A stretch of DNA of 37,979 nucleotides. Origin: Bacteroidota bacterium. Lineage in GTDB: Bacteria; Bacteroidota; Bacteroidia; Flavobacteriales_D; Sanyastnellaceae. The translations under genes were made by a program, and so were the position numbers. The notes below the pieces were generated by a model. That model was given only the letters and a program-made list of their open reading frames with translations, was not told the DNA's origin and did not search any database. Of the stretch, positions 6,517-34,583 are shown one piece after another. The stretch covers positions 1-37,979 of the forward strand of contig VGFR01000006.1 of the NCBI GenBank assembly GCA_016868835.1. The letters run 5' to 3'. Each line of letters opens with the position of its first letter. Within the stretch, counting starts at the first letter, position 1.

Positions 6517-6558
6517 ATTGCTTTTCGGTAAACGTTCGAAAAACCTTCGTAAAGCAAT
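6517..6558. terminator. Stem-loop between convergent genes
   Basis: ATTGCTTT (6517-6524) and AAAGCAAT (6551-6558) form an 8-bp perfect stem enclosing a 26-base loop with a further GGT/ACC pairing. It occupies the 50-base gap between the HD gene (plus) and the T9SS protein gene (minus). Position suggests a shared terminator; the stem is AT-rich. Confidence 0.45.
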
Positions 6559-8798
6559 TACTCTTTAACCAATCGAAGCGTTGTTCCGCCAACACGAACC
6601 AAATACAATCCCGTTTGCCACTTAGCAACATTCAACTGCATCTGTTCTGTTGTTACCTTTTCAGTGTGAACGATTCTTCCCGTTAAATCTAAAACCTCCA
6701 ATAACATTCCTTTCTCCAAACCCTTAATTGTAATTTGCGTTCTCGCCGGATTCGGATACAACTGAATTTCATTTTTACCTTCAGCGATGGTCTCACCAAT
6801 ACCAACTCCACATGCCATGGTGTAAACCGGACTAGTCATTGCCGTTTGCATGTTGTTACCCATGTCATGAACGGTAAACTGAACCTCAGTTCCACAGGCA
6901 TATGGTCCTTTCAATGTTTGACCCGTTGTACTCATTACAGCCGCCGGCTCATTCAATGATGACATGACTCCGTATGGTCCTCCTGTACCCATTGAGGCCA
7001 GATCCATGAGTACATAAAATTGGTTATTTGCAGGGTCCTCCATCAACATCATTCCCATGTTAGGCAAATCAGTCGTATACACACAACTGCCATCATCAAA
7101 CTGCGCTTGATCGCTGTAATTGGCTGCCATAGGGTCAACACAACCTCCGCAGTAATACAAACAACTTCCAACGTCGCAGGTGGCAGTACTTTCGTAATTA
7201 CAAGCCATTGGATCTATACAGCCCGCAATTTCATTCGCTGATGATACGTAAGCCTGCAAATACCCAAAGTCTGCTAAATTTCCCTCCAATACCACTTCAC
7301 CTTGCGCGTTTGAAACAGTTACGTTGTTATTCTCTGGCGAGAATGAATAAAGTACCAATTGGTAGCACGAAGTCGCACTCATACAATATCCGCTCACATA
7401 TGGAAATTCATTGAAGTCGCCTTCACCCGTATTCGGATTAAAAGCATAGAATACAACCTGTTCTGTTGCACTTATGGTGTTCCAATTTGAAGCGTCACAG
7501 CATGAACCATCATCCACTGTTGCACTCGAATCATAGTTCGGTGCTGATGCATTCGTGCAGCCAAAACACGAGTAATCGCAAAGATTGTAATTCGCACAGG
7601 TTGCATTCGGATTGTAGTTACAAGCAAATGGATCTGTACAACCAATTATTTCACCAACCGAAAAATATTCATTGATGTACGGATTGGGGTTATTTGTTGT
7701 CTGATAAAAAATACTTCCATCAGGGCCATAAATAGTCAGGTTGAAAGGAGCAACATTCAAACTCCAAACGTTCAATGAGAAACAGTTTTGTTCCATGCAA
7801 AATCCTTGAAGCATGTTGTTGTATCCGCCTTGTTGGTAAAGTTCATCTGACGAAGTAACATACCACTCAATCCAGGTGGAACACTCAACCGTGTACCAAT
7901 TATTGAAACAACAGGTTCCATTATCAACGGTTGCATTCGGATCATAATTGGTTGCAGTTGGGTCTGTACATCCGCTGCAAGAAGCATATTCGCAAGAGCC
8001 GTCATTGCAGGTGGTTCCAGGATTGTAATTGCAGGCATTGAAATCGGCGCAACCGTAAATGGGATTTAATGAAACGGTCGTGTAGAGGTAGTTGGAATCT
8101 ACAATTCCAGAGAGCCAAGTTGATCCATCTTCTAACACTACAGTGTAGTTTTGATCCACTGCAGAATTATTGAACGAATAAACTTGCAAGCTGTAACAAC
8201 CGTCCTTCACACAAAATTGGTTATTCACCAAATTATCTCCTCCTGTCATGAAATATTGCTCACTGTATAACCAAATGCCCGCTTCACCATTATCAACTTG
8301 AAACGTGGCCCAATGGTCTATACAACATGTACCGTTATCTGCAGTTGCATTCGGATTGTAGTTAAATGCTTCTGGATTCGTGCAGCCGAGACATGAGTAG
8401 TCGCAACTTATGTAATCGAAACACGTTGCATTCGGGTTGAAATTGCAGGCGCTTGGGTCGGTACACCCTGTAACACCATTGTTTGAAAGGAATCCGATGT
8501 AGTAAAATTCGTTTCCTTGATTTTCAATATTTAATACATTCCCCGAAGCGTCTGAAACACTTACTAACAAAGGAAGTGGATTCATGGCCATAGATTCAAC
8601 ATAGACTTGAAAACAGCCGTCTGAAACACAAAAAGTAGTGGCTTCAGGAGATGTACCTTGCGCTGCAGTCTCACCTGTGCTGCTGTAAACAGTCCAGCTC
8701 GAAGGTTGAAAGATACTTAATGAATAGCAGTTTACATTTTGCGCAAATATGCTTGTTGTAAGTGCTGAAAAAATTAAGAATAAGAGGGCTTTGTTCAT
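6558..8798 (-). CDS. Secreted T9SS protein with four composite Cys-rich/beta repeats
   Basis: The product has 746 residues. A signal peptide (MNKALLFLIFSALTTSIFAQ) is followed by four composite units with a period of about 138 residues. Each unit has a beta-rich module carrying an FCVxDGC-like motif (residues 57-62, 195-201, 333-339, 471-478) and a Cys-rich double motif of the type GCTDPxACNYNPxATC...GCTDPxAxNYDPxATxDDGSC (111-158, 249-296, 386-433, 527-572). A non-repeated segment follows, then a type A T9SS sorting domain from about 676 (LYPNPARTQITIKG to GLYLVRVGG). It should be exported by T9SS to the surface or medium. The repeat motif resembles those of large Bacteroidota surface proteins. 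Function is unknown; adhesion or matrix binding is a guess. Confidence 0.9.
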   Translation of the reverse strand: MNKALLFLIFSALTTSIFAQNVNCYSLSIFQPSSWTVYSSTGETAAQGTSPEATTFCVSDGCFQVYVESMAMNPLPLLVSVSDASGNVLNIENQGNEFYYIGFLSNNGVTGCTDPSACNFNPNATCFDYISCDYSCLGCTNPEAFNYNPNATADNGTCCIDHWATFQVDNGEAGIWLYSEQYFMTGGDNLVNNQFCVKDGCYSLQVYSFNNSAVDQNYTVVLEDGSTWLSGIVDSNYLYTTVSLNPIYGCADFNACNYNPGTTCNDGSCEYASCSGCTDPTATNYDPNATVDNGTCCFNNWYTVECSTWIEWYVTSSDELYQQGGYNNMLQGFCMEQNCFSLNVWSLNVAPFNLTIYGPDGSIFYQTTNNPNPYINEYFSVGEIIGCTDPFACNYNPNATCANYNLCDYSCFGCTNASAPNYDSSATVDDGSCCDASNWNTISATEQVVFYAFNPNTGEGDFNEFPYVSGYCMSATSCYQLVLYSFSPENNNVTVSNAQGEVVLEGNLADFGYLQAYVSSANEIAGCIDPMACNYESTATCDVGSCLYYCGGCVDPMAANYSDQAQFDDGSCVYTTDLPNMGMMLMEDPANNQFYVLMDLASMGTGGPYGVMSSLNEPAAVMSTTGQTLKGPYACGTEVQFTVHDMGNNMQTAMTSPVYTMACGVGIGETIAEGKNEIQLYPNPARTQITIKGLEKGMLLEVLDLTGRIVHTEKVTTEQMQLNVAKWQTGLYLVRVGGTTLRLVKE
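7083..8732 (-). repeat. Four composite coding repeats, about 414 nt period
   Basis: The Cys-rich double motifs begin at residues 111, 249, 386 and 527 of the T9SS protein, spacing 138, 137 and 141 residues. The beta modules between them are diverged in sequence but keep the FC-x4-CYSL-like motif, showing old tandem duplication of the whole unit. The repeat is clear at protein level and weak at DNA level. Confidence 0.85.
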
Positions 8799-8801
8799 CT
8801 G

Positions 8802-8830
8802 GTTGTCTTTGGTTCTCGAATAAAGACAAC
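8802..8830 (-). promoter_or_regulatory. Perfect inverted repeat at the start of the T9SS protein gene
   Basis: GTTGTCTTT (8802-8810) and AAAGACAAC (8822-8830) are perfect 9-bp arms separated by 11 bases, ending three bases from the ATG at 8798. On the reverse strand a -7-like box (TTTATTCG) overlaps the upstream arm, with TTTG 17 bases further upstream. It could be an operator or a leader hairpin controlling translation. Confidence 0.5.
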
Positions 8831-8877
8831 TGAACCTTAAACAAAGTTCGCTCGGTAGTATAACTACTTCGAAAGAA

Positions 8878-8893
8878 GGCGAAATGCTTCGCC
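8878..8893 (-). terminator. Terminator of the CoA-transferase operon
   Basis: GGCGAA (8878-8883) and TTCGCC (8888-8893) form a 6-bp stem with loop ATGC. Read on the reverse strand it is followed by TTCTTTC. It lies 8 bases beyond the stop of the CoA-transferase beta gene at 8901. Confidence 0.55.
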
Positions 8894-8900
8894 CTCGTGG

Positions 8901-9530
8901 TTACACCACCAATTTCCCTGCTGTCTTCGCCACAACTTCTTCCAACGATACTTCCGGAGCCAATTCAACCAAATGGAACGCTTCATCACGAATGTCGAAT
9001 ACACCCAAATCAGTAACTACTTTTTTAATGCAATGAATACCGGTTAATGGCAAGGTACATTGAGGTAACAATTTAGAATTACCCGCCTTGTCGCAGTGTT
9101 GCATGGCTACAATAATATTCTTCGCGCTTGCCACCAAATCCATGGCGCCACCCATTCCTTTCACCATTTTACCAGGAACCTTCCAATTGGCGATGTCGCC
9201 ATGCTCACTTACCTCCATTGCACCCAAAATGGTGAGGTCTACTTTCTGTGCGCGAATCATTCCGAAACTCATGGCACTATCGAAGATGGAAGATCCATCG
9301 CGCAAGGTTACCGTTTGCTTTCCCGCATTAATTAAATCAGCATCTTCTTCTCCCTCAAATGGAAAAGGCCCCATACCCAAAATTCCATTTTCACTTTGCA
9401 GCTCAACTTCCATTCCCTCTGGAATGTAATTCGCTACCAAGGTGGGAATACCAATACCTAAATTCACATACGTTCCATCTTGCACTTCCTGTGCAATGCG
9501 CTTCGCGATTCCAATTTTATCCCAAGCCAT
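8901..9530 (-). CDS. scoB: 3-oxoacid CoA-transferase subunit B
   Basis: The 209-residue product is the beta subunit of a class I CoA-transferase that moves CoA from a donor such as succinyl-CoA to acetoacetate or a related acid. The family segment VNLGIGIPTLVANYIP is near residues 22-37. The catalytic glutamate is Glu47 in SENGILGMGPFP, which forms the glutamyl-CoA intermediate. Its ATG is 2 nt after the subunit A stop, so the subunits are made in step. The donor/acceptor pair (SCOT type or AtoDA type) cannot be fixed from sequence alone; the SCOT type is usual in this phylum. Confidence 0.94.
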   Translation of the reverse strand: MAWDKIGIAKRIAQEVQDGTYVNLGIGIPTLVANYIPEGMEVELQSENGILGMGPFPFEGEEDADLINAGKQTVTLRDGSSIFDSAMSFGMIRAQKVDLTILGAMEVSEHGDIANWKVPGKMVKGMGGAMDLVASAKNIIVAMQHCDKAGNSKLLPQCTLPLTGIHCIKKVVTDLGVFDIRDEAFHLVELAPEVSLEEVVAKTAGKLVV

Positions 9531-9532
9531 AG

Positions 9533-10237
9533 TTATATTTTTTGGCGAACAGTGCGCTGCTCAATTCGTTTTTCATAATTCGCACCCTGAAAAATGCGAT
9601 GCACATAAATACCCGGTGTATGAATGTGATCGGGGTCTAATGCGCCTAAAGGAACCAATTCTTCCACCTCAACAATGGTTGTTTTTCCTGCCATGGCCAT
9701 CATGGGGTTGAAGTTGCGTGCTGTAGAACGAAAAACTAGGTTTCCCATGGCATCTCCTTTCCAAGCTTTCACAAGAGCGAAGTCTGCATTGAATGCTTCT
9801 TCCATCAGATATTTCTTCCCGTTGAATTCACGAACTTCTTTTCCTTCCGCCACTTCGGTACCCACGCCCGCAGGTGTAAAAACAACTGGCATTCCGTATC
9901 CGGCTGCCATGCATCGGGTAGCCAATGTTCCTTGAGGTATTAACTCTACTTCCAATTCACCGCTCAACATTTGTCGTTCGAATTCGGCATTTTCGCCCAC
10001 ATAAGAACTAATCATTTTCTTGACTTGTTTTTGTTGAAGCAGTAGCCCTAAGCCAAAGTCATCTACGCCGGCATTGTTTGAAATGCATGTGAGATCTTTT
10101 ACTCCCATTTTTACCAATTCAGAAATGCAGTTTTCTGGAATACCGCATAGCCCGAATCCGCCTACCATGAGTGTCATGCCAGAGGTTATTCCTTCACATG
10201 CTTCTGCAGCAGAAGCTCTTACTTTATTGAATCCCAT
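9533..10237 (-). CDS. scoA: 3-oxoacid CoA-transferase subunit A
   Basis: This is a 234-residue alpha subunit of a class I CoA-transferase. The glycine-rich CoA-binding motif [12 protein letters not shown] is at residues 25-36, and the GVDDFGLG and [20 protein letters not shown] segments are typical of the family. The ATG is 2 nt after the stop of the PBP1A gene, and subunit B follows after another 2 nt, so the three genes look like one translationally coupled operon. It works with subunit B in ketone-body or short-chain acyl metabolism. Confidence 0.94.
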
Positions 10238-10239
10238 GC

Positions 10240-12660
10240 TTATGGTGTTTGATTTTCAATATTCGATTTTCCATCATCGCCGTCAAATTCCAATTCCCCA
10301 TTTAGTATTTCTTCTCCTTCTTCCCACCAGTCTTCAGAGAATAGTGCGCCCATTTCACCTACACATTCAAATTTTTTGGGATCATAGTTTTCTGGCTTTT
10401 TGAAATCTTCTGTTGAAATTTTAATTTTTGGATCACGGTACACTTTATTCATGAAGTATCCGAAAATAGGTAATCCTGTATTTGCACCTTGTCCGTAGAA
10501 GGTTGAAGAGAAGCGGATTGTAGGATCTTGTGCTCCAACCCAAACAGCAGTAACTAAGTCTGGAGTCATACCTACAAACCAACCGTCTGTGTTGTTCTGC
10601 GTGGTTCCTGTTTTACCTGCAAGTGGATGTTTTATTCCTCCGTACTTCGGGTGACTTCGAATACGCGAAGCTGTTCCGTGTTCGCATACTCCTTTCATGA
10701 GCTTTACCGTCTCATATGCAATATCTGGATCTAACGCTTGATCTATGACAGGGTCTGCTTCGTAAATTAAATTTCCGTTTCTATCTTCCACACGCATGAT
10801 GAACGTTGGCTCTATGTACAATCCTTGATTAACCAGCGTGGCTTGTGCGCCTAATAATTCAAACAACGAAATATTCGCGGCACCCAGCGCAATGGAATAC
10901 ATCATAGGAATATCACTCTTCACACCCATGTGTCTGAGCATGGCAATAACGGGCTCGGGACCAAATTTTGAAATGAGTGTTGCTGCGGCGGCGTTTATGG
11001 AGCCTGCCAGTGCCCTGGCCATGGTGTAAGTACCGCCGCCGCCACCTTTCGGACACCACTGTCCGCCCGTAGGTAAATCAATACATCCCCCAGAGCAAAC
11101 AATGGGTTCGCATGGATTAATTCCCATACGCATGGCTGTGGCATACACGAACGGCTTGAAAGTTGACCCTACTTGCCTTTTCGATAACCAAACATTGTCA
11201 TATTTGAAATACTTGTAATCAATACCACCTACCCAGGCCTTCACAAATCCGTTATTGGGATCTACAGACATGAGAGAAGCATGCAAAATGGTCTTGTGGT
11301 AAATGATGCTGTCATATGGACTAAGAAGCGTATCTCTGTAGCCTCTGTGCGAGTATACTTTCATTTTTGCGGGCTTGTACATGGCCTGATCCATTTCCCC
11401 TTCGTCTAGAATTGGCCAACGGTGACCGCATCCGCCCTGATCTTCTTTGCAATGGTGTTGTCCGTTCACTTGTTCAATGAATCCTTTTGGTCTTTGGCAG
11501 TCGGGACACATGTGCCCTGACATCATTTTATATCGATCGCTAGATTCTACAGCCTGACGAATAATATGGTTTCTATCCTCCTCGGAGATACCATTGTAAA
11601 AAGGATATTTTTCTTTTTTTCTGTATTTCAGATCTCGCGTAAAGGCCGGTTGAAGTTCACGTTTCAAATGTTCTTCTACCGCATATTCAGCGTGATGCTG
11701 CATGTTTAAATCCAAGGTGGTGTATACACGCAACCCGTCTTCATAAATGTTGAATGGGGTGCCATCAGATTTTTTGTATTTGTATTCACCCTTCTCATCT
11801 TTCTCTTCAAAGATTTCAGTCAGTTTTTGTCTCACTGCTTCGCGGAAATAAGGGGCTTCACCGGTTTCGTGACTCACCGCGGTATACTGCAGACCAAGGG
11901 GTTCAACACGCAATTTTTCGTATTGCGCTTCTTCCAATTTTCCGTACTTCACCATTTGATCCAATACCACCTCTCTTCTCTTTCGAACCAATGAATCGCG
12001 TTTAATTGGATTATATAGCGATGAGTTTTTTAGCATACCAACCAACATGGCACCTTGATTTACGGTTAATGAATCTGGTGAAGTATTGAAATAAATTTGC
12101 GCCGCACTTTTGATACCTACTGCTTGATTCAAGAAATCATATTGGTTGAGGTACATGGTTAGAATTTCTTCTTTGGTATACAAACGTTCAAGACGAAGTG
12201 CAATGACCCATTCTTGAAATTTCTGACCTACCCGGGTTAACATACTTACATTTTCAAAATCTCTGGTAAATTGTAGTTTTGCCAGCTGCTGTGTTATTGT
12301 GCTTCCGCCGCCGTCTGATCCCATGGAAAACAACGCGCGAGCTAAGCTCCGAAAATCTATTCCACTGTGTTCATGGAAACGCACGTCTTCCGTAGCTAAC
12401 AGAGCATCTTTCACGTACTGCGGAATTTCTTCATACGTAATATCTGAGCGGTTTTCTTTGTAGAAAGTACCCATAAGTGTGCCGTCTGCAGCATAAATCT
12501 GAGAAGCTAAACCCACCTTAGGGTTGGCTAAGCTGGCGATGTCTGGGAGACCACTGTTCAAGAGAACAATGAGGCCAACAGAAAATAAAATCCAAGGTGA
12601 CATGGCTGTCCACCAGATAATTTTCAAATACCTTTTTTCTAAGGGAAACTCATTTTGCAT
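10240..12660 (-). CDS. mrcA: Class A penicillin-binding protein 1A with Cys-rich inserts
   Basis: The 806-residue bifunctional peptidoglycan synthase has an N-terminal membrane anchor (about residues 20-37). The glycosyltransferase domain shows Glu91 in [13 protein letters not shown] and [15 protein letters not shown] at 117-131. In the transpeptidase domain the active Ser is S499 of STFK, SIN is at 554-556 and KTGTT at 683-687. Two cysteine clusters are unusual: CPDC (385-388) with HHC and GGCGH (402-413), like a zinc ribbon, in the linker; and four Cys at 517, 522, 526 and 536 after the STFK motif. It builds and cross-links the wall in the periplasm. It follows uvrC by 43 bases and leads the CoA-transferase genes. 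Confidence 0.95.
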
Positions 12661-12703: not shown

Positions 12704-14509
12704 TTATTCATTCAAATGAAAATATTGATAGACCTTTTTAGCTATCGATTCTGAGACGACATGTCTCAAATTTTCTATGGTTTGCTGCTTTATTTTTGCA
12801 ACCGAACCAAAGGAACGCAGCAGTTTTTCTCGAGACATTTTTCCAACCCCTTGAATCAAATCCAATTCAGAACCTATGGCACCTTTACTTCTTCTGTTCC
12901 TATGTTTACTTAATCCAAACCTATGGGCTTCATTTCTGAGGTGTTGAATGAGTTTCAAAGATTCACTTCTTTTGTCGAGATACAGCGGTATTTCATCACC
13001 GGGAAAATAAATTTCTTCCAATCGTTTAGCGATACCAATGATGGTTATTTTACCTCTTAAATCAAGTGCTTCCAGTGCTTTCATGGCGGCAGACAGCTGA
13101 CCTTTTCCACCGTCAATAATAAGCAATTGTGGAAGTGGTTGACCTTCGCGAAGCAAACGAGAATATCGCCTACCTACTGCCTCGGTCATGGAGGCAAAAT
13201 CATCGGGTCCTTCCACCGATTCAATGTTAAAAATGCGATAATCTTTTTTACTTGGCTTTGCGTCTTTAAACACAACGCATGCACTCACCGGATTTGTTCC
13301 TTGAATATTTGAATTATCAAAACACTCTATGTGCTCGGGTAGTGCATGCATGCGCAAGTCTGCTTTGAGCGTCTCTAAAATGCGACGCGTGTTTTTTTCA
13401 GGGTCAAGGAATGCTTCTCGCTTCTTGGACTCTATTAAGAAAAATTGTGCATTTTTTTCTGACAATTCCAGCAGTTTTCTTTTGTCGCCTCGTTGAGGAA
13501 CCATCCAGGAAATTCCTTGTATTTCATCTTCAATTTCAACGGCAGTTATAATTTGTTTGACCTGGTGAGAGGTTCTTTCTAAACAATTCTGGGCAATGCT
13601 ATAAATAACCTCTTGCTCATCTTGCTCTTCTGCACGCACCACCTCAGCCGTGTATACTTGTACAATGCTCCCTCTGTTGACAACCATCCAATTTGCAAAA
13701 CACGACATGCCGTCTCTTGCGATTGTTAAAACACCCACCTGATCTATTTCAGGATTTACAATGGTTGATTTTACCTTGAATTGTTCAAGCGAATGAATTC
13801 TTTCCTTGAGGCGTTGAGCCTTTTCAAATTCAAGTTGATCTGCACATTGAATCATTTCTTCGCGCAGCGATTTCATTACTTCCACAATTTCACCTTTAAT
13901 CACGCGTCGAGCGTAATCTATTCCTTGCAAGTAATCAGATTCTTTTTGTTTGCCCTCACAAGGGCCTAAACAATTGCCCAAATGGTATTCCAAGCAAACT
14001 TTAAATTTCCCTGCTTTTATATTGGCAGGCTTCAAATCAAGCGTGCAGGTGCGCATGGGAACAACCTCTTTGATTACATCTAGCAACGTGTATAACGCCT
14101 TACCGTTCGTGTACGGACCGAAATATTTCGAGCCGTCTTGAAGAACTTGTCTTGTCGCAAATACCCGCGGAAAGGGCTCGTTCTTTATAACAATACTGGC
14201 GTATGATTTATCGTCTTTGAGTAAAATGTTGTAACGCGGTTTGTGCGATTTTATCAATGTATTTTCCAGCAGAAGTGCATCTGATTCTGACTCTACAACG
14301 GTGTAGCGGATATCCGCAATTTTTTCAACCAACCGCTTAGTTTTAACCTGATCAAATTGTTGTTTAACGAAATAGCTTGAAACCCTATTCTTGAGATTTT
14401 TAGCTTTCCCTACGTAAATCACCACCCCCTGTTGATCGAGATATTGGTATACCCCGGGTTTAACAGGCAATGCTTTCAAAATACTTTTTATGTGGCCGTT
14501 CACATTCAC
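12704..14509 (-). CDS. uvrC: UvrABC system protein C
   Basis: The nucleotide-excision repair nuclease has 601 residues from the GTG at 14509 (MNVNGHIKSIL). A longer reading from a TTG at 14560 would run into the divergent epimerase gene and lacks family similarity, so the GTG is preferred; a second GTG at 14503 is possible. Domains are GIY-YIG (PGVYQYLDQQG to IYVGKAKNL, residues 16-40), a central UVR motif (LEFEKAQRLKERI), an RNase H-like nuclease with ECFDNSNIQGTNPV near residue 395, and C-terminal HhH (LIQGVGKMSREKLLRSFG). It makes both incisions around a lesion bound by UvrB. Its start codon is 29 bases from that of the divergent epimerase. Confidence 0.95.
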   Translation of the reverse strand: MNVNGHIKSILKALPVKPGVYQYLDQQGVVIYVGKAKNLKNRVSSYFVKQQFDQVKTKRLVEKIADIRYTVVESESDALLLENTLIKSHKPRYNILLKDDKSYASIVIKNEPFPRVFATRQVLQDGSKYFGPYTNGKALYTLLDVIKEVVPMRTCTLDLKPANIKAGKFKVCLEYHLGNCLGPCEGKQKESDYLQGIDYARRVIKGEIVEVMKSLREEMIQCADQLEFEKAQRLKERIHSLEQFKVKSTIVNPEIDQVGVLTIARDGMSCFANWMVVNRGSIVQVYTAEVVRAEEQDEQEVIYSIAQNCLERTSHQVKQIITAVEIEDEIQGISWMVPQRGDKRKLLELSEKNAQFFLIESKKREAFLDPEKNTRRILETLKADLRMHALPEHIECFDNSNIQGTNPVSACVVFKDAKPSKKDYRIFNIESVEGPDDFASMTEAVGRRYSRLLREGQPLPQLLIIDGGKGQLSAAMKALEALDLRGKITIIGIAKRLEEIYFPGDEIPLYLDKRSESLKLIQHLRNEAHRFGLSKHRNRRSKGAIGSELDLIQGVGKMSREKLLRSFGSVAKIKQQTIENLRHVVSESIAKKVYQYFHLNE

Positions 14510-14525
14510 GGTGCAAATATCGGTA

Positions 14526-14533
14526 TATCTTCG
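14526..14533 (+). promoter_or_regulatory. -7 box of the epimerase gene, very close to its start codon
   Basis: TATCTTCG matches the Bacteroidota -7 consensus TAnnTTTG at all but one base. It ends 5 bases before the ATG at 14539. On the other strand GATATTTG, also one mismatch from the box, ends 4 bases before the uvrC GTG. No -33 TTTG is obvious for either. Confidence 0.35.
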
Positions 14534-14538
14534 CGAGC

Positions 14539-15546
14539 ATGATGGTGGTAACTGGAGCAACGGGAATGGTTGGAAGTCATTTATGTCTTCGACTTGCCGA
14601 GATGGGCGTTCCTGTTAGGGCTTGTTATCACAAAGAAAAAAAGAAAAAGCATCTCAAATCGTTATTTCAATTTTATAAAAAAGAGCATCTCTTGTCTTTC
14701 CTTTCTTGGGAGAAATTGGATATAACCGATTTTGAAAATGTATTGGAGATCACTGAAAATGCCACCCATGTTTTTCATTGTGCGGCAGTGGTTTCTTACC
14801 ATCCGAAAGACGCGAAGGCATTAATGGAAACGAACGTTGATGGTACTGCTCATGTAGTGAATGCGTGCATAGAAAACAAGGTAGAACATCTCATTTATGT
14901 GAGTTCAATTTCTGCTTTGGGGAAAAATGACAAGGAAACCATAAATGAAGACACGCCTCGAGACATGGCTTTGTATTATACCAATTATTCGAGAAGTAAA
15001 TACCTTGCAGAGCTCGAGGTTTGGAGAGGCGTTGAAGAGGGATTGCCCTGCACCATTTTCAATCCCGGAGTTATTCTTGGGCCAGGTGTATTCAGTCAAA
15101 GTTCTGGAACATTGTTTCTACGCATACAAAAAGGATTACCGGCAATGCCCGCAGGTGGAACCGGACTTGTAACCGTGCACAATGTTGTGCAGGCCATGCT
15201 TGCAGCATATACGCGAGGAGCAACCAATGAACGATTTGTTTTAGTGAGTGAAAATTGGAGTATGGCGCAACTATTTTCAACAATAGCGGCGGCACTTCAG
15301 GTAAAAATAGGGAACGGCATAGCGAAAAAATGGCAGCTTAACCTAGTTTATATGCTTGAACGTATTACCGAAATGTTCACAGGAAAAAAAGCAAGCGTAA
15401 CAAAAGAAATCATTCGCAATTACGGCGAAACGAATACATACAACGGATCCAAAGCCATTGACTTTTTTCAATTTCAATACGGTTCGTTAACAGAAGCCAT
15501 TCAGGAAACAGTTGAGTTCAAAAACGAAACGGCCTCATTCGAATGA
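14539..15546 (+). CDS. NAD-dependent epimerase/dehydratase family protein
   Basis: The product has 335 residues from the first of two adjacent ATGs (MMVVTGATGMVG). Reading further upstream to 14470 would overlap uvrC, so that start is rejected. It is an extended short-chain dehydrogenase: Rossmann motif TGATGMVGSHLCLRLAE at the N-terminus, a VFHCAAVVS strand, the SSISALG segment, and the active-site YSRSK (Y-x3-K). Substrate is unknown; relatives act on nucleotide sugars or dihydroflavonol/cholesterol-like ketones. It is transcribed divergently from uvrC. The 3' end forms part of a strong hairpin at 15526-15559. Confidence 0.9.
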   Translation: MMVVTGATGMVGSHLCLRLAEMGVPVRACYHKEKKKKHLKSLFQFYKKEHLLSFLSWEKLDITDFENVLEITENATHVFHCAAVVSYHPKDAKALMETNVDGTAHVVNACIENKVEHLIYVSSISALGKNDKETINEDTPRDMALYYTNYSRSKYLAELEVWRGVEEGLPCTIFNPGVILGPGVFSQSSGTLFLRIQKGLPAMPAGGTGLVTVHNVVQAMLAAYTRGATNERFVLVSENWSMAQLFSTIAAALQVKIGNGIAKKWQLNLVYMLERITEMFTGKKASVTKEIIRNYGETNTYNGSKAIDFFQFQYGSLTEAIQETVEFKNETASFE

Positions 15547-31741: not shown

Positions 31742-32319
31742 TTTTTAGGTTGAAGCGGAACAAGTAATCCGGCTCTAAAAATAATAGGGCCGTATGGTGA
31801 GCGCGTATCTTCTGTCATATCATAAAGCAAAGAGAAATAGGATCCAATTCCGTTTCCAATACCTTGTGAAATGCCTGCTCCAACCAAAAACAATGGAAAC
31901 GACTGTCGCTTCACATCATAAGATGCACCATTCCATGTATATACTGGGGCATTCATGTAATTCAATTCTGTTGTAGCATAAAATCCGCCTAGAATTCCCA
32001 TTCGGGTCCATGCTACAAGCGAGGTGTAAAAATTGGTTCGTCCGGCGGTGGAATAAACCATACCATCAACACCTGCTCCTGCTGAAAAGCGTTCAGTTAT
32101 CCGGTAACCGACCATGGGCATAAGCTGACCATAAAATACGCCTTGACCTTGATACGTGCTGAGTCCTAAACCCAAATTTCCACCTACTACAATGCGCTCC
32201 CGTTGCGAGTAATTTTGAAAATCACTCTTCGGTAATTCCGGTTGGGTTATGTAATCCTCATCCTGCGCCAAGCCCTGCAAGCTGAGCATTCCAAGAATAA
32301 CAAATAGAAAAATTCTCAT
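31738..32319 (-). CDS. Small outer-membrane barrel protein coupled to a T9SS protein
   Basis: The 193-residue product has a signal peptide (MRIFLFVILGMLSLQGLAQ) and a beta-barrel-like mature part with strands such as RIVVGGNLGLGLSTY, LMPMVGYRITERFSAGAGVDGM and IIFRAGLLVPLQP. Its ATG overlaps the stop of the upstream T9SS beta-propeller gene (ATGA), so translation is coupled. It is much shorter than PorP/SprF proteins (about 300 residues), so it is not that family on length. A role as partner or surface anchor of the propeller protein is inferred only from gene order. Confidence 0.78.
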   Translation of the reverse strand: MRIFLFVILGMLSLQGLAQDEDYITQPELPKSDFQNYSQRERIVVGGNLGLGLSTYQGQGVFYGQLMPMVGYRITERFSAGAGVDGMVYSTAGRTNFYTSLVAWTRMGILGGFYATTELNYMNAPVYTWNGASYDVKRQSFPLFLVGAGISQGIGNGIGSYFSLLYDMTEDTRSPYGPIIFRAGLLVPLQPKN

Positions 32320-33386
32320 CGCTCAAAATGCGTTGTAGCAAATTCTGCACCTGCTGAAACACGCACAAAATATAAGCCCGAAGCATTGGGTAATTCGGTT
32401 AAAACAATTTGGTGTTGACCTTGAGGAAGTGTTTGTGTAAAAGGGGTGTCAATCAATTTCCCCTGTACATCAAAGATTTCAATACGCACCAATTTCGCTT
32501 CTGGAAGAGTGAATGCCACCTGATATAAATCTGTTACCTGTGTTGGAAATCCTGATGCTTCAAACTTCTCAGTTTCCAAACTGCCAACATAGGACGGATT
32601 AAAACCCACGAATTTCACTTGATTATTTCCCGAGCAGGGAATGGCCAAAGTGTCTATTTCTTCAGCGTAACATATGTCTGCCGGACTACTTACACCACCT
32701 GTAACCGTGATGGTTTGCGACGTTGTGAATTCATTCGAGTATCGGGTAATTGCATTTGGTGACCACGAGGCTACGTAGTAGTTTCCATAGTTATCATTGT
32801 CTACACCATCTATATTTCCAAGGCTTGTGGTTACAATGGTGCTTAGCGTATTCGTTGATAAATCAATGGCTTTAATTGCAGCATTACTTCCCCATGAGAC
32901 AAGTACCAATCTGTTTTGAGTTGCATCATAACAAATGCCATTGGGAGTTGAGCCTGTTGCCGCCACAATGACTGTACTGGTTGGGTTTGCAAGATCAGCC
33001 ACATTCAGCTCATGTACTTTTTTTGCTGAGAAGTCGGTCACCCAAAGTTTATCAACTCCATTGCTTGCCATGCCATTCAAGAAAACCGCACCTGAAATGG
33101 TTTTGGTCATGACTTGAGCACCGGTTGTTACATCATATCCCTTCACTGCACTTCCCACAATAGAAAACAAAACACCGTTCATGACCTCCATGCCATAGTC
33201 AGCTTTAGCCACACCAAGTGTACCTTGCGGAATGGCATCGCTGTGCATGCGCACTACGTTATTACCGTTACTCACAAGAAAAATCTGATTGGTAGGATCA
33301 TACTCTACAGACTCAATTCCAGTTAATGACTGCGCTTGAGCGAAAAGGAATGGGAGACAAAAAAGAAGTGTAAATATTTGTTTCAT
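32316..33386 (-). CDS. Secreted beta-propeller protein with T9SS sorting domain
   Basis: The product has 356 residues from the ATG at 33386 (MKQIFTLLFCLPFLFAQAQ, a signal peptide). A longer frame from 33545 overlaps purK and is rejected. Residues about 20-275 show repeated strands of a six-bladed NHL/SMP-30-like propeller: NQIFLVSNGNNVVRMHSD, MASNGVDKLWVTDFSAKKVHEL, TPNGICYDATQNRLVLVSWGSNA, DGVDNDNYGNYYVASWSPNAITRY. The C-terminal 75 residues form a type A T9SS sorting domain (VRIEIFDVQGKLID to GLYFVRVSAG). It should be carried out by T9SS; ligand unknown. It is divergent from purK. Confidence 0.88.
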   Translation of the reverse strand: MKQIFTLLFCLPFLFAQAQSLTGIESVEYDPTNQIFLVSNGNNVVRMHSDAIPQGTLGVAKADYGMEVMNGVLFSIVGSAVKGYDVTTGAQVMTKTISGAVFLNGMASNGVDKLWVTDFSAKKVHELNVADLANPTSTVIVAATGSTPNGICYDATQNRLVLVSWGSNAAIKAIDLSTNTLSTIVTTSLGNIDGVDNDNYGNYYVASWSPNAITRYSNEFTTSQTITVTGGVSSPADICYAEEIDTLAIPCSGNNQVKFVGFNPSYVGSLETEKFEASGFPTQVTDLYQVAFTLPEAKLVRIEIFDVQGKLIDTPFTQTLPQGQHQIVLTELPNASGLYFVRVSAGAEFATTHFER

Positions 33387-33428
33387 AGTTGTGCAAATTA
33401 CAAGAAAGTTTTCAAATGAAACCACCTT

Positions 33429-33436
33429 TATCTTTG
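33429..33436 (+). promoter_or_regulatory. -7 box of purK, four bases before the start codon
   Basis: TATCTTTG matches TAnnTTTG exactly and ends at 33436, with the ATG at 33441. If this box is used, transcription would start at or within a few bases of the ATG. A -33 TTTG is not clear. Confidence 0.45.
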
Positions 33437-33440
33437 CAAA

Positions 33441-34583
33441 ATGGGAAAGGAACTTAATCCACAAACAAAACTTGGAATTCTTGGCGGTGGCCAATTGGGT
33501 AGAATGTTCATTCAGGAAGCCATAGGCTTGAATGTTTGCGTTCATGTTTTAGACCCTGCCGACAATGCACCCTGCGCTGCCATTGCCAATGTGTTTGTTC
33601 AAGGAGACTTTGCTGATTACGAAACGGTATTGAATTTTGGAAAAGAGGTTGACGTGATAACCATTGAGATTGAACACGTCAACATTGAGGCGTTGGAAGA
33701 GTTAGAGCGAATAGGAAAATTGGTATATCCGCGTCCGTCTGCATTGCGCACCATCAAAGACAAGGGACTACAAAAATTATTTTACGCAGCGCATCAAATA
33801 CCAACGGCACCTTTTGTCTTGGTTGAAAATAAAATGGAGGCTGCGTTGCATGTTTCTGAAGGTCCTTTCATGCAGAAGCTGCGCACGGGTGGATACGATG
33901 GAAAGGGTGTTACTCCCTTCCGGAATGAGGCAGATTTAGAACATGCTTTTGATGCTCCGAGTGTTTTGGAGGAAATGGTCCGTTTTGAGAAAGAACTAGC
34001 GGTTATTGTAGCCCGCAATGCATCTGGTGAATTGCGCGTTTTTCCGTTGGTTGAAATGGAATTTAATTCAGAGGCCAACTTGGTTGAGTTCATATTCTCA
34101 CCCGCTAATGTCTCTGTTGAAGTTGCTCATGAGGCCGCTGAAATTGCAAAAAAAATAGTTGAGCAATTGGATCACGTTGGACTTTTAGCTGTTGAATTAT
34201 TTTTAACAGAAACGGGGCAGCTCTTGGTGAATGAGGTTGCTCCGCGTCCGCACAACAGTGGACACCATACCATAGAGGCGTGTTATACATCTCAATACGC
34301 TCAGCACATGCGTGCCATCTTGAATTTACCTCTGGGCGATACGGCACTGCGAAGTGCGGGGGTTATGATTAATTTGTTGGGTGAAAAGGGATTTACGGGC
34401 ACAGCGAAATATGAAGGTTTAGAAGAGGTTCTTTCAACACAGGGTGCGTATGTGCATTTGTATGGAAAAGAAGAAACGAAGCCCTTCAGGAAGATGGGTC
34501 ACATTACCATTTGTCTTCCTGAATTGGAGCAGGCCAAACAGCTTGCTCGAAAGTTCTTGTCAACAGTTAAAGTCAAGGCTTAG
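33441..34583 (+). CDS. purK: 5-(carboxyamino)imidazole ribonucleotide synthase
   Basis: The 380-residue ATP-grasp enzyme of purine synthesis carboxylates AIR to N5-CAIR using ATP and bicarbonate. The N-terminus has LGILGGGQLGRMFIQEA; the central FMQKLRTGGYDGKGV and the C-terminal NEVAPRPHNSGHHTIEAC are family signatures. Length is usual. Its partner PurE is not in the window; purQ lies at the right edge. It is divergent from the T9SS propeller gene across 54 bases and convergent with lpdA. Confidence 0.97.
   Translation: MGKELNPQTKLGILGGGQLGRMFIQEAIGLNVCVHVLDPADNAPCAAIANVFVQGDFADYETVLNFGKEVDVITIEIEHVNIEALEELERIGKLVYPRPSALRTIKDKGLQKLFYAAHQIPTAPFVLVENKMEAALHVSEGPFMQKLRTGGYDGKGVTPFRNEADLEHAFDAPSVLEEMVRFEKELAVIVARNASGELRVFPLVEMEFNSEANLVEFIFSPANVSVEVAHEAAEIAKKIVEQLDHVGLLAVELFLTETGQLLVNEVAPRPHNSGHHTIEACYTSQYAQHMRAILNLPLGDTALRSAGVMINLLGEKGFTGTAKYEGLEEVLSTQGAYVHLYGKEETKPFRKMGHITICLPELEQAKQLARKFLSTVKVKA

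Follow-up and report, generated by a model that had tools for sequence, protein, structure and literature searches.

What does a bacterium build when it alternates beta modules with paired Cys-rich motifs in one secreted chain, and what are so many cysteines for? This locus raises the question in a stretch of DNA referred to here as the window, the 37,979 nucleotides of contig VGFR01000006.1 from a Bacteroidota bacterium that were analysed. The gene is an ORF at 6558-8798 on the minus strand that starts with ATG and encodes 746 amino acids, 43 of them cysteines. From N- to C-terminus, four repeat units are followed by an Fn3-like domain and a type A T9SS signal, with the following segments:

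6558..8798, minus strand: whole gene, 746-aa secreted protein (sequence)
8739..8798, minus strand: probable signal peptide, residues 1-20, ending ..SIFAQ (by eye; helix 2-17 in the model)
8469..8738, minus strand: beta module 1, residues 21-110, beginning with Cys24 (sequence, whole-chain model, congener comparison)
8388..8468, minus strand: Cys motif A1, residues 111-137 (sequence and congener comparison)
8325..8387, minus strand: Cys motif B1, residues 138-158; the adjoining Cys159 is the proposed N-end staple Cys of beta module 2
8055..8324, minus strand: beta module 2, residues 159-248 (sequence and whole-chain model)
7974..8054, minus strand: Cys motif A2, residues 249-275 (sequence and congener comparison)
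7911..7973, minus strand: Cys motif B2, residues 276-296, like B3 of congener L056 (congener comparison)
7644..7910, minus strand: beta module 3, residues 297-385, orthologue of congener module 4 (unit model, congener comparison)
7563..7643, minus strand: Cys motif A3, residues 386-412 (sequence and unit model)
7500..7562, minus strand: Cys motif B3, residues 413-433 (sequence and unit model)
7224..7499, minus strand: beta module 4, residues 434-525, orthologue of congener module 5 (congener comparison)
7146..7223, minus strand: Cys motif A4, residues 526-551 (sequence)
7083..7145, minus strand: terminal Cys motif B4, residues 552-572, with a single final Cys and no beta module after it (Cys rule)
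6807..7076, minus strand: Fn3-like domain, residues 575-664, conserved, with its own Cys pair 635/663 (fold and orthologue comparison)
6561..6761, minus strand: T9SS type A C-terminal sorting domain, residues 680-746 (PF18962, TIGR04183, fold)

Repeat architecture and predicted export

The original prediction described a four-fold repeat with a period of about 138 residues, and this repeat is real. Self-identity of the protein peaks at lag 138 (0.167), above the largest value reached by 500 shuffles over lags 20-399 (0.144; mean of the maxima 0.112). When cut after each second Cys motif, the units are 138, 138, 137 and 139 residues long and are 34-43% identical to one another. Each of the four beta stretches carries a C-x4-C or C-x5-C hairpin. 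Of the FCVxDGC-like hairpins assigned to the modules, those of modules 1 and 2 (FCVSDGCF at 56 and FCVKDGCY at 195) fit FCVxDGC itself, whereas those of modules 3 and 4 (FCMEQNCF at 333 and YCMSATSCY at 471) only resemble it. Eight GC-x-D/N motifs form four pairs, with starts at 111/138, 249/276, 386/413 and 526/552. Ten cysteines are used per unit. The first motif of each pair (motif A) and its linker contain five, and the second (motif B) contains two, plus a third when a beta module comes next. The conserved Fn3-like domain sits between unit 4 and the T9SS tail. We regard this architecture, a regular and genuine composite repeat that has no name in the libraries searched, as well supported; the function is what we infer below.

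The protein had also been called a T9SS client, and the evidence agrees. Its tail matches PF18962 at 47.1 bits (cut-off 27; E 3e-12; Pfam) and TIGR04183 at 44.3 bits (cut-off 23; E 1.3e-11; NCBIfam), and residues 672-746 resemble T9SS CTDs in VIA-align, with Z 10.3 to PorZ and 9.1 to the mirolase CTD. The N-terminus is hydrophobic and ends in AQ, as read by eye only. Our check of the T9SS machinery covered SprA and a C25 peptidase, and genes for both are found in the same genome (SprA_N, E 1.8e-162; Peptidase_C25, E 5.7e-91); we take the C25 gene to be PorU-type. The tail and these two genes support export of the 746-aa protein by the T9SS. Type A T9SS clients are anchored at the C-terminus, and by analogy the window protein would be held on the cell surface in the same way. 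It therefore shares with type A clients bearing a Por_Secre_tail both the tail and a genome encoding SprA and a C25 peptidase; what differs is the rest of the chain, which rises above no Pfam or NCBIfam family cut-off. Elsewhere in the window, the gene at 32319-33545 (minus strand) has a T9SS-tail match of 25 bits against the cut-off of 27 and an SGL match that likewise falls just below its cut-off.

Fold and kinship of the beta module

The original prediction had no described fold for this alternation, and no convincing match was found outside the T9SS tail in Pfam, NCBIfam, PHROGs or the PDB, nor did a search for a profile match to a well-characterised domain find one. PDB sequence searches returned mainly T9SS tails and weak single matches; Lmo1076 (5jqc, E 0.0096), the sole significant-looking match on a unit, was dropped as unsupported. 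The Pfam listing to E<=10, for which HMMER filters discard most matches above about 0.1, names two families only, and PLAT, C2, CUB, EGF and TSP3 are absent from it. CUB, EGF and TSP3 are also missing from the VIA rows displayed, which leaves room for such domains. The beta module and Cys motifs are similarly without a Pfam or NCBIfam name in the wider relatives L108, L080, L050 and L119. Literature searches for GCTDP with Bacteroidetes and for NYDPNAT gave no match within a scope that mostly omits subscription journals, and the occurrences of DDGSC and GDGWN, judged by title, were unrelated.

Structure prediction of a single unit was performed on one unit together with the preceding B motif, using 111 aligned units (alignment A3, 111 of 129 references; the 18 excluded by hand were mostly N-terminal units, together with some distant ones). 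The resulting model has a mean pLDDT of 93.2 and forms a beta-sandwich, with eight strands of at least four residues, flanked by small Cys loops. Foldseek returned nothing from the PDB at E<=0.001. The top match in VIA-align, where a Z below 8 possibly reflects just a common arrangement, was the C-domain of Clostridium alpha-toxin (Z 6.1, rmsd 2.9, 79 aligned); lipoxygenase (Z 5.8, rmsd 3.3, 81 aligned) and Bacteroides DUF4425 (Z 5.4, rmsd 3.3, 82 aligned) were also matched. We take the alpha-toxin C-domain and the lipoxygenase N-domain to be PLAT/C2-like sandwiches. The modelled sandwich may be weakly similar to such C2/PLAT arrangements, with a likeness in fold of Z 6.1 or less and no Pfam sequence match for the window protein. 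The whole-chain model (pLDDT 77.5, pTM 0.37) does not define the placement of the units relative to each other and does not support a straight rod. Because the full-chain VIA search rows fell mostly over residues 446-746, the unit model was used for the other modules. Residues 575-664 appear Fn3-like by single-domain rows with Z 7.3-7.4 and rmsd 2.6-3.0, also below a VIA-align Z of 8.

The beta module does not stand alone, as comparison with a second kind of module shows. GDG-type modules, which are fuller and contain a DSFGDGWN or similar loop, alternate with the same Cys motifs in large relatives and in the own-genome paralogue L050. Using the beta module only, with Cys motifs excluded, a profile of 97 GDG-free orthologue modules picked out 109 of the 127 GDG modules (E<=1e-3) and none of 762 control sequences made by reversal or shuffling. 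The opposite search, with the GDG profile, matched 63 of 103 orthologue modules; GDG text is present in 6 of the 103 and in none of the four window modules. The original prediction would have been refuted by unrelated folds between the Cys motifs, and instead all four window stretches match the one orthologue beta profile (E 9.5e-28 to 9.5e-16, each E<=1e-15). The GDG profile matched window modules 1 and 2 (E 2.2e-6 and 1.1e-4), while modules 3 and 4 (E 0.027 and 0.01) were not above the best of 204 controls (0.015). Judged by these two-way profile matches, the window beta modules are divergent relatives of a widespread, uncurated GDG(W)-loop module and lack that loop. The GDG-type module (C-x4-C and GDG loop; L050, L080, L104, L108) has the same flanking A and B motifs, of the form GCTDxxA..NY..DDGSC, and differs at the proposed clamp, which in the window would be CC plus ATC where the GDG-type has a Cys at the module end. 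In one such relative, L080 8591-13645, four GDG-type units are joined to a protease resembling lysyl endopeptidase (1arb, E 6e-39).

Proposed cysteine pairing

To describe how the cysteines might pair, we counted which of them occur together; the counts run over related sequences and are not independent trials, and repeated sequences were counted once, as they were for the GDG profiles and viral contigs. Of 483 motifs containing AC, 475 are followed by a linker Cys before the next motif begins, compared with 3 of 75 motifs without AC. This rule was also seen in viral-contig loci that were not used to derive it (6/6 with AC versus 15/473 without). Among 25 orthologues and the window, every internal B motif ends in CC (120/120), and B motifs with no subsequent beta module end in a single C (25/25). 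The one last B motif of 26 that has CC belongs to L079, where the contig end falls inside a following beta module.

The other end of the module obeys a matching rule. Where CC stands ahead of a 60-125 residue stretch (n=167), the next motif contains ATC in 116 cases and a Cys lies in the last 12 residues in 51, four of which contain an unrecognised motif; no stretch lacks a C-end Cys (0/167). We also chose stretches between B and A motifs by length alone (60-125 residues), yielding 293 distinct stretches, 243 with C-x-C hairpin text and 45 with motif-like text, and these are not all beta modules. Exactly one C-end Cys, either ATC or last-12, occurs in 291 of these; of the other two, one has both and one has neither. 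An N-end Cys is present in 249 stretches, every one of which also has a C-end partner; the remaining 44 of 293 have no N-end Cys within eight residues. The rule is weaker in viral-contig loci, where the C-end partner accompanies the N-end Cys in 19 of 23 stretches and is missing from 4. Column co-occurrence of Cys22 and Cys126 in alignment A3 (89/3/0/19) was given no weight, as it chiefly reflects a difference between clades.

Unit 1 has no preceding B motif, and Cys24 stands in place of the extra Cys. In the simplest map the staple pairs would be 24-126, 159-264, 297-401 and 434-541. Adding the hairpin, A and B loops and 635-663 of the Fn3-like domain, the predicted map has 21 pairs and uses 42 of the 43 cysteines; the odd one, Cys306, is Ser in congener L056. 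The co-occurrence counts are best explained by disulfides, as had been proposed for the Cys-rich units, including one staple per beta module. A disulfide is thus predicted to clamp both ends of every beta module, and the Cys rules fit such a clamp. In orthologues, the extra Cys follows a B motif only where a beta module comes next. With these rules, a repeat that had no name yields a disulfide map, 21 predicted bonds in all, that can be tested. That disulfides act in Bacteroidota surface machinery is indicated by the F. johnsoniae SprF protein, which is disulfide-bonded to GldK (PMC12635249).

Neither VKOR nor DsbB was matched in the window's own genome (96% complete), which counts against the disulfides. 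If the clamp is real, this raises the question of the oxidation route for so many cysteines. Several predicted exported proteins of this genome are Cys-rich, yet it has no DsbB/VKOR match.

Unit loss, tip variation and possible role

The orthologue records L055-L079 are MAGs, at a guess lake assemblies. They were compared in alignments A2 (19 of 24 orthologue references) and A4 (the window and 23 of 25 references, L079 and the second L063 copy being excluded); alignment A5 consists of 10 domains, two of which were trimmed, that passed a length filter out of 18 loci tried. The four congeners L055-L058 each contain five units versus four in the window, and window units 1-4 correspond to congener units 1, 2, 4 and 5 at 53-80% identity. 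Compared with L056, window A2 is like congener A2 through the linker and is then joined in frame to a B motif like congener B3. From this alignment, we conclude that the window lost one unit by an in-frame crossover, with the junction between A2 and B3 near 7974. A close relative, L077, shows another loss, in which beta 1 is directly joined to an A-B pair like that of unit 2. We conclude from these losses that the unit order is old and that copy number changes through recombination near the Cys motifs.

Divergence is also uneven along the chain. Between L055 and L056, beta modules 1-5 are 34, 81, 95, 99 and 96% identical and the unit 1 A and B motifs 83%, with a dN of 0.63 for beta 1 and 0.005 for beta 4. 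In five of the six congener pairs, beta 1 is far less conserved (31-54%) than any other module; the exception is L056-L058, at 88%. Against the window, congener beta 1 is 38-62% identical and the other modules 72-81%, and beta 4 is near-invariant among the four congeners (93-99%). Synonymous sites in these comparisons are often saturated; for L055-L057, dS is 0.27 in beta 2 and 1.85 in beta 1, and such uneven dS across the units of one pair is a sign of mosaic recombination. We extended the comparison to 19 proteins of L055-L076, leaving out contig-edge starts and non-strict parses, in pairs of 55-99.5% mean identity that share members and are not independent. Mean beta identities in 27 five-unit pairs, N to C, are 54.1, 57.5, 67.4, 72.7 and 70.3, with the lowest module at position 1 in 7 pairs, position 2 in 10, position 3 in 3 and position 4 in 6 (all with L062), and one tie. 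No gradient is seen in the six six-unit pairs (88.2, 88.5, 92.0, 84.5, 86.0 and 86.3), and beta 1 is strictly lowest in none of them. Beta module 1 is presumably the tip; by these identities a variable tip is true for the window's genus and is not general.

In L055-L058 the gene is downstream of homologues of the window genes at 8901-12660 and 12704-14560, and in L064, L073, L074 and L075 the last two of those homologues flank it. We take these window genes to be scoB, scoA, PBP1A and uvrC, and they give no hint of function for the 746-aa protein. Between the homologue of 8901-9530 and the gene, L055-L058 and L077 contain ~1 to 5.5 kb of variable DNA (L058 8067-9011, L055 6450-9098, L057 7174-9822), for which the window counterpart is 102 bp (8799-8900). 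This gap encodes an 883-aa secreted-type protein in L055 and L057, and a presumably transposase-like ORF in L058.

The profile search for the unit across genomes that had been suggested matched 192 of 399 sampled genomes of the order, the window's family included, part of these matches being to Cys motifs only; among good genomes of the order the count is 97 of 238. Thus the unit is common and yet nameless in the curated libraries searched. Matches at E<=1e-10 occur in 112 of the family's 114 genomes, many low scorers covering mostly Cys motifs. Used as a marker of orthologues within the window's family, the Fn3-like domain has matches in 38 of 114 genomes, spread over 14 of 21 genera, the weaker ones being in other proteins. 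In the window's genus it occurs in six of nine genomes, with one match each. The protein is not essential, since the marker is missing from one 96%-complete congener genome.

At about even odds (roughly 0.5), we favor a surface-anchored stalk or adhesin whose modules are clamped by disulfides and whose tip is variable. Export would go through SprA, directed by the type A C-terminal domain, and unit 1 would end up outermost once a PorU-type sortase had anchored the C-terminus. In each unit, a beta-sandwich would come first and then the A and B motifs as two small Cys loops closed by disulfides. The ATC Cys of an A motif would be bonded to the extra Cys that follows the B motif of the previous unit (in unit 1, to Cys24). 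The beta module would then be clamped where both ends meet, so that a pulling force bypasses the fold through the disulfides. Inner modules would serve as conserved extenders, and the probable role of the variable tip module would be contact with a ligand, particle, prey or phage. Stiffness and adhesion are what we infer for the protein on this reading. More tentatively, such proteins may form a distinct mechanical class of bacterial surface fibre with swappable tips, in which a disulfide staple joins the ends of every domain; a Cys would be added after the B loop only if a module is next, its partner being supplied by the following A loop or by the module's own end. As described in PMC8382745 and PMC5380327, isopeptide- or ester-bonded Gram-positive surface proteins and Ca-clamped adhesin extenders have domains likewise braced against pulling. 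The window's proposed clamp differs in being a disulfide that joins module ends in a T9SS client, as read from sequence. If true, the stapled fibre would be a Bacteroidota counterpart of isopeptide-clamped pili, and T9SS bacteria could make force-resistant surface fibres without isopeptide chemistry.

The same disulfides could instead serve four beta modules on a flexible string that bind ligands, glycan or particle, multivalently, with rigidity and force bearing irrelevant. Orthologues differ in unit number but not in the order of their distinct modules, the modules of the window protein are dissimilar enough (34-43% identical) that they could bind different ligands, and the fold may weakly resemble C2/PLAT-like domains. 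However, multivalent binding alone needs no staple on every module, and the constancy of beta 4 among congeners is more like that of a structural part; we consider this alternative rather unlikely. Less probable still is a protease-resistant cell-coat or matrix protein, in which repeats and cysteines give durability and N-terminal variation is escape from phage or grazers. The dense Cys pattern, the divergent N-terminal module, the uneven dS across units in one pair of congeners, the abundance of unit profile matches in family and order, and the absence of the protein from some congeners are all compatible with a coat. Self-assembly has no supporting evidence, though, and a single marker match per genome (six genus genomes) at a conserved congener locus suggests a specific role. 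Binding of metal (Ca, Fe, Zn) by the Cys- and Asp-rich motifs in place of disulfides, to which the Asp/Asn-rich motif B (DDGSC, NYDP) and the unmatched VKOR and DsbB might point, is very improbable given cysteines in even, position-coupled sets, an extra Cys after B only before a beta module in orthologues, and an extracellular location, which favors Cys oxidation. Asp residues may nevertheless bind Ca alongside the disulfides of the clamped stalk that we favor.

The Cys motifs also occur in other settings. On contig 18 of the window's own genome (L052), a 1405-aa frame cut by the contig contains 13 tandem DDGSC-type motifs with a period of ~24 residues and no beta modules between them. On contig 110 (L054 1-332), A and B motifs are followed by a tail that we take to be dockerin-like; similar tails are present in L045, L047, L048 and L049. 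B-type motif arrays are abundant in viral contigs (L136-L215; at least 600 matches), some of which may be bacterial, and 27 of 86 viral-contig ORFs have PNP text near their end. Lastly, Synechococcus phage S-CAM3 has a weakly matching protein (E 7e-3) with a virion structural annotation.
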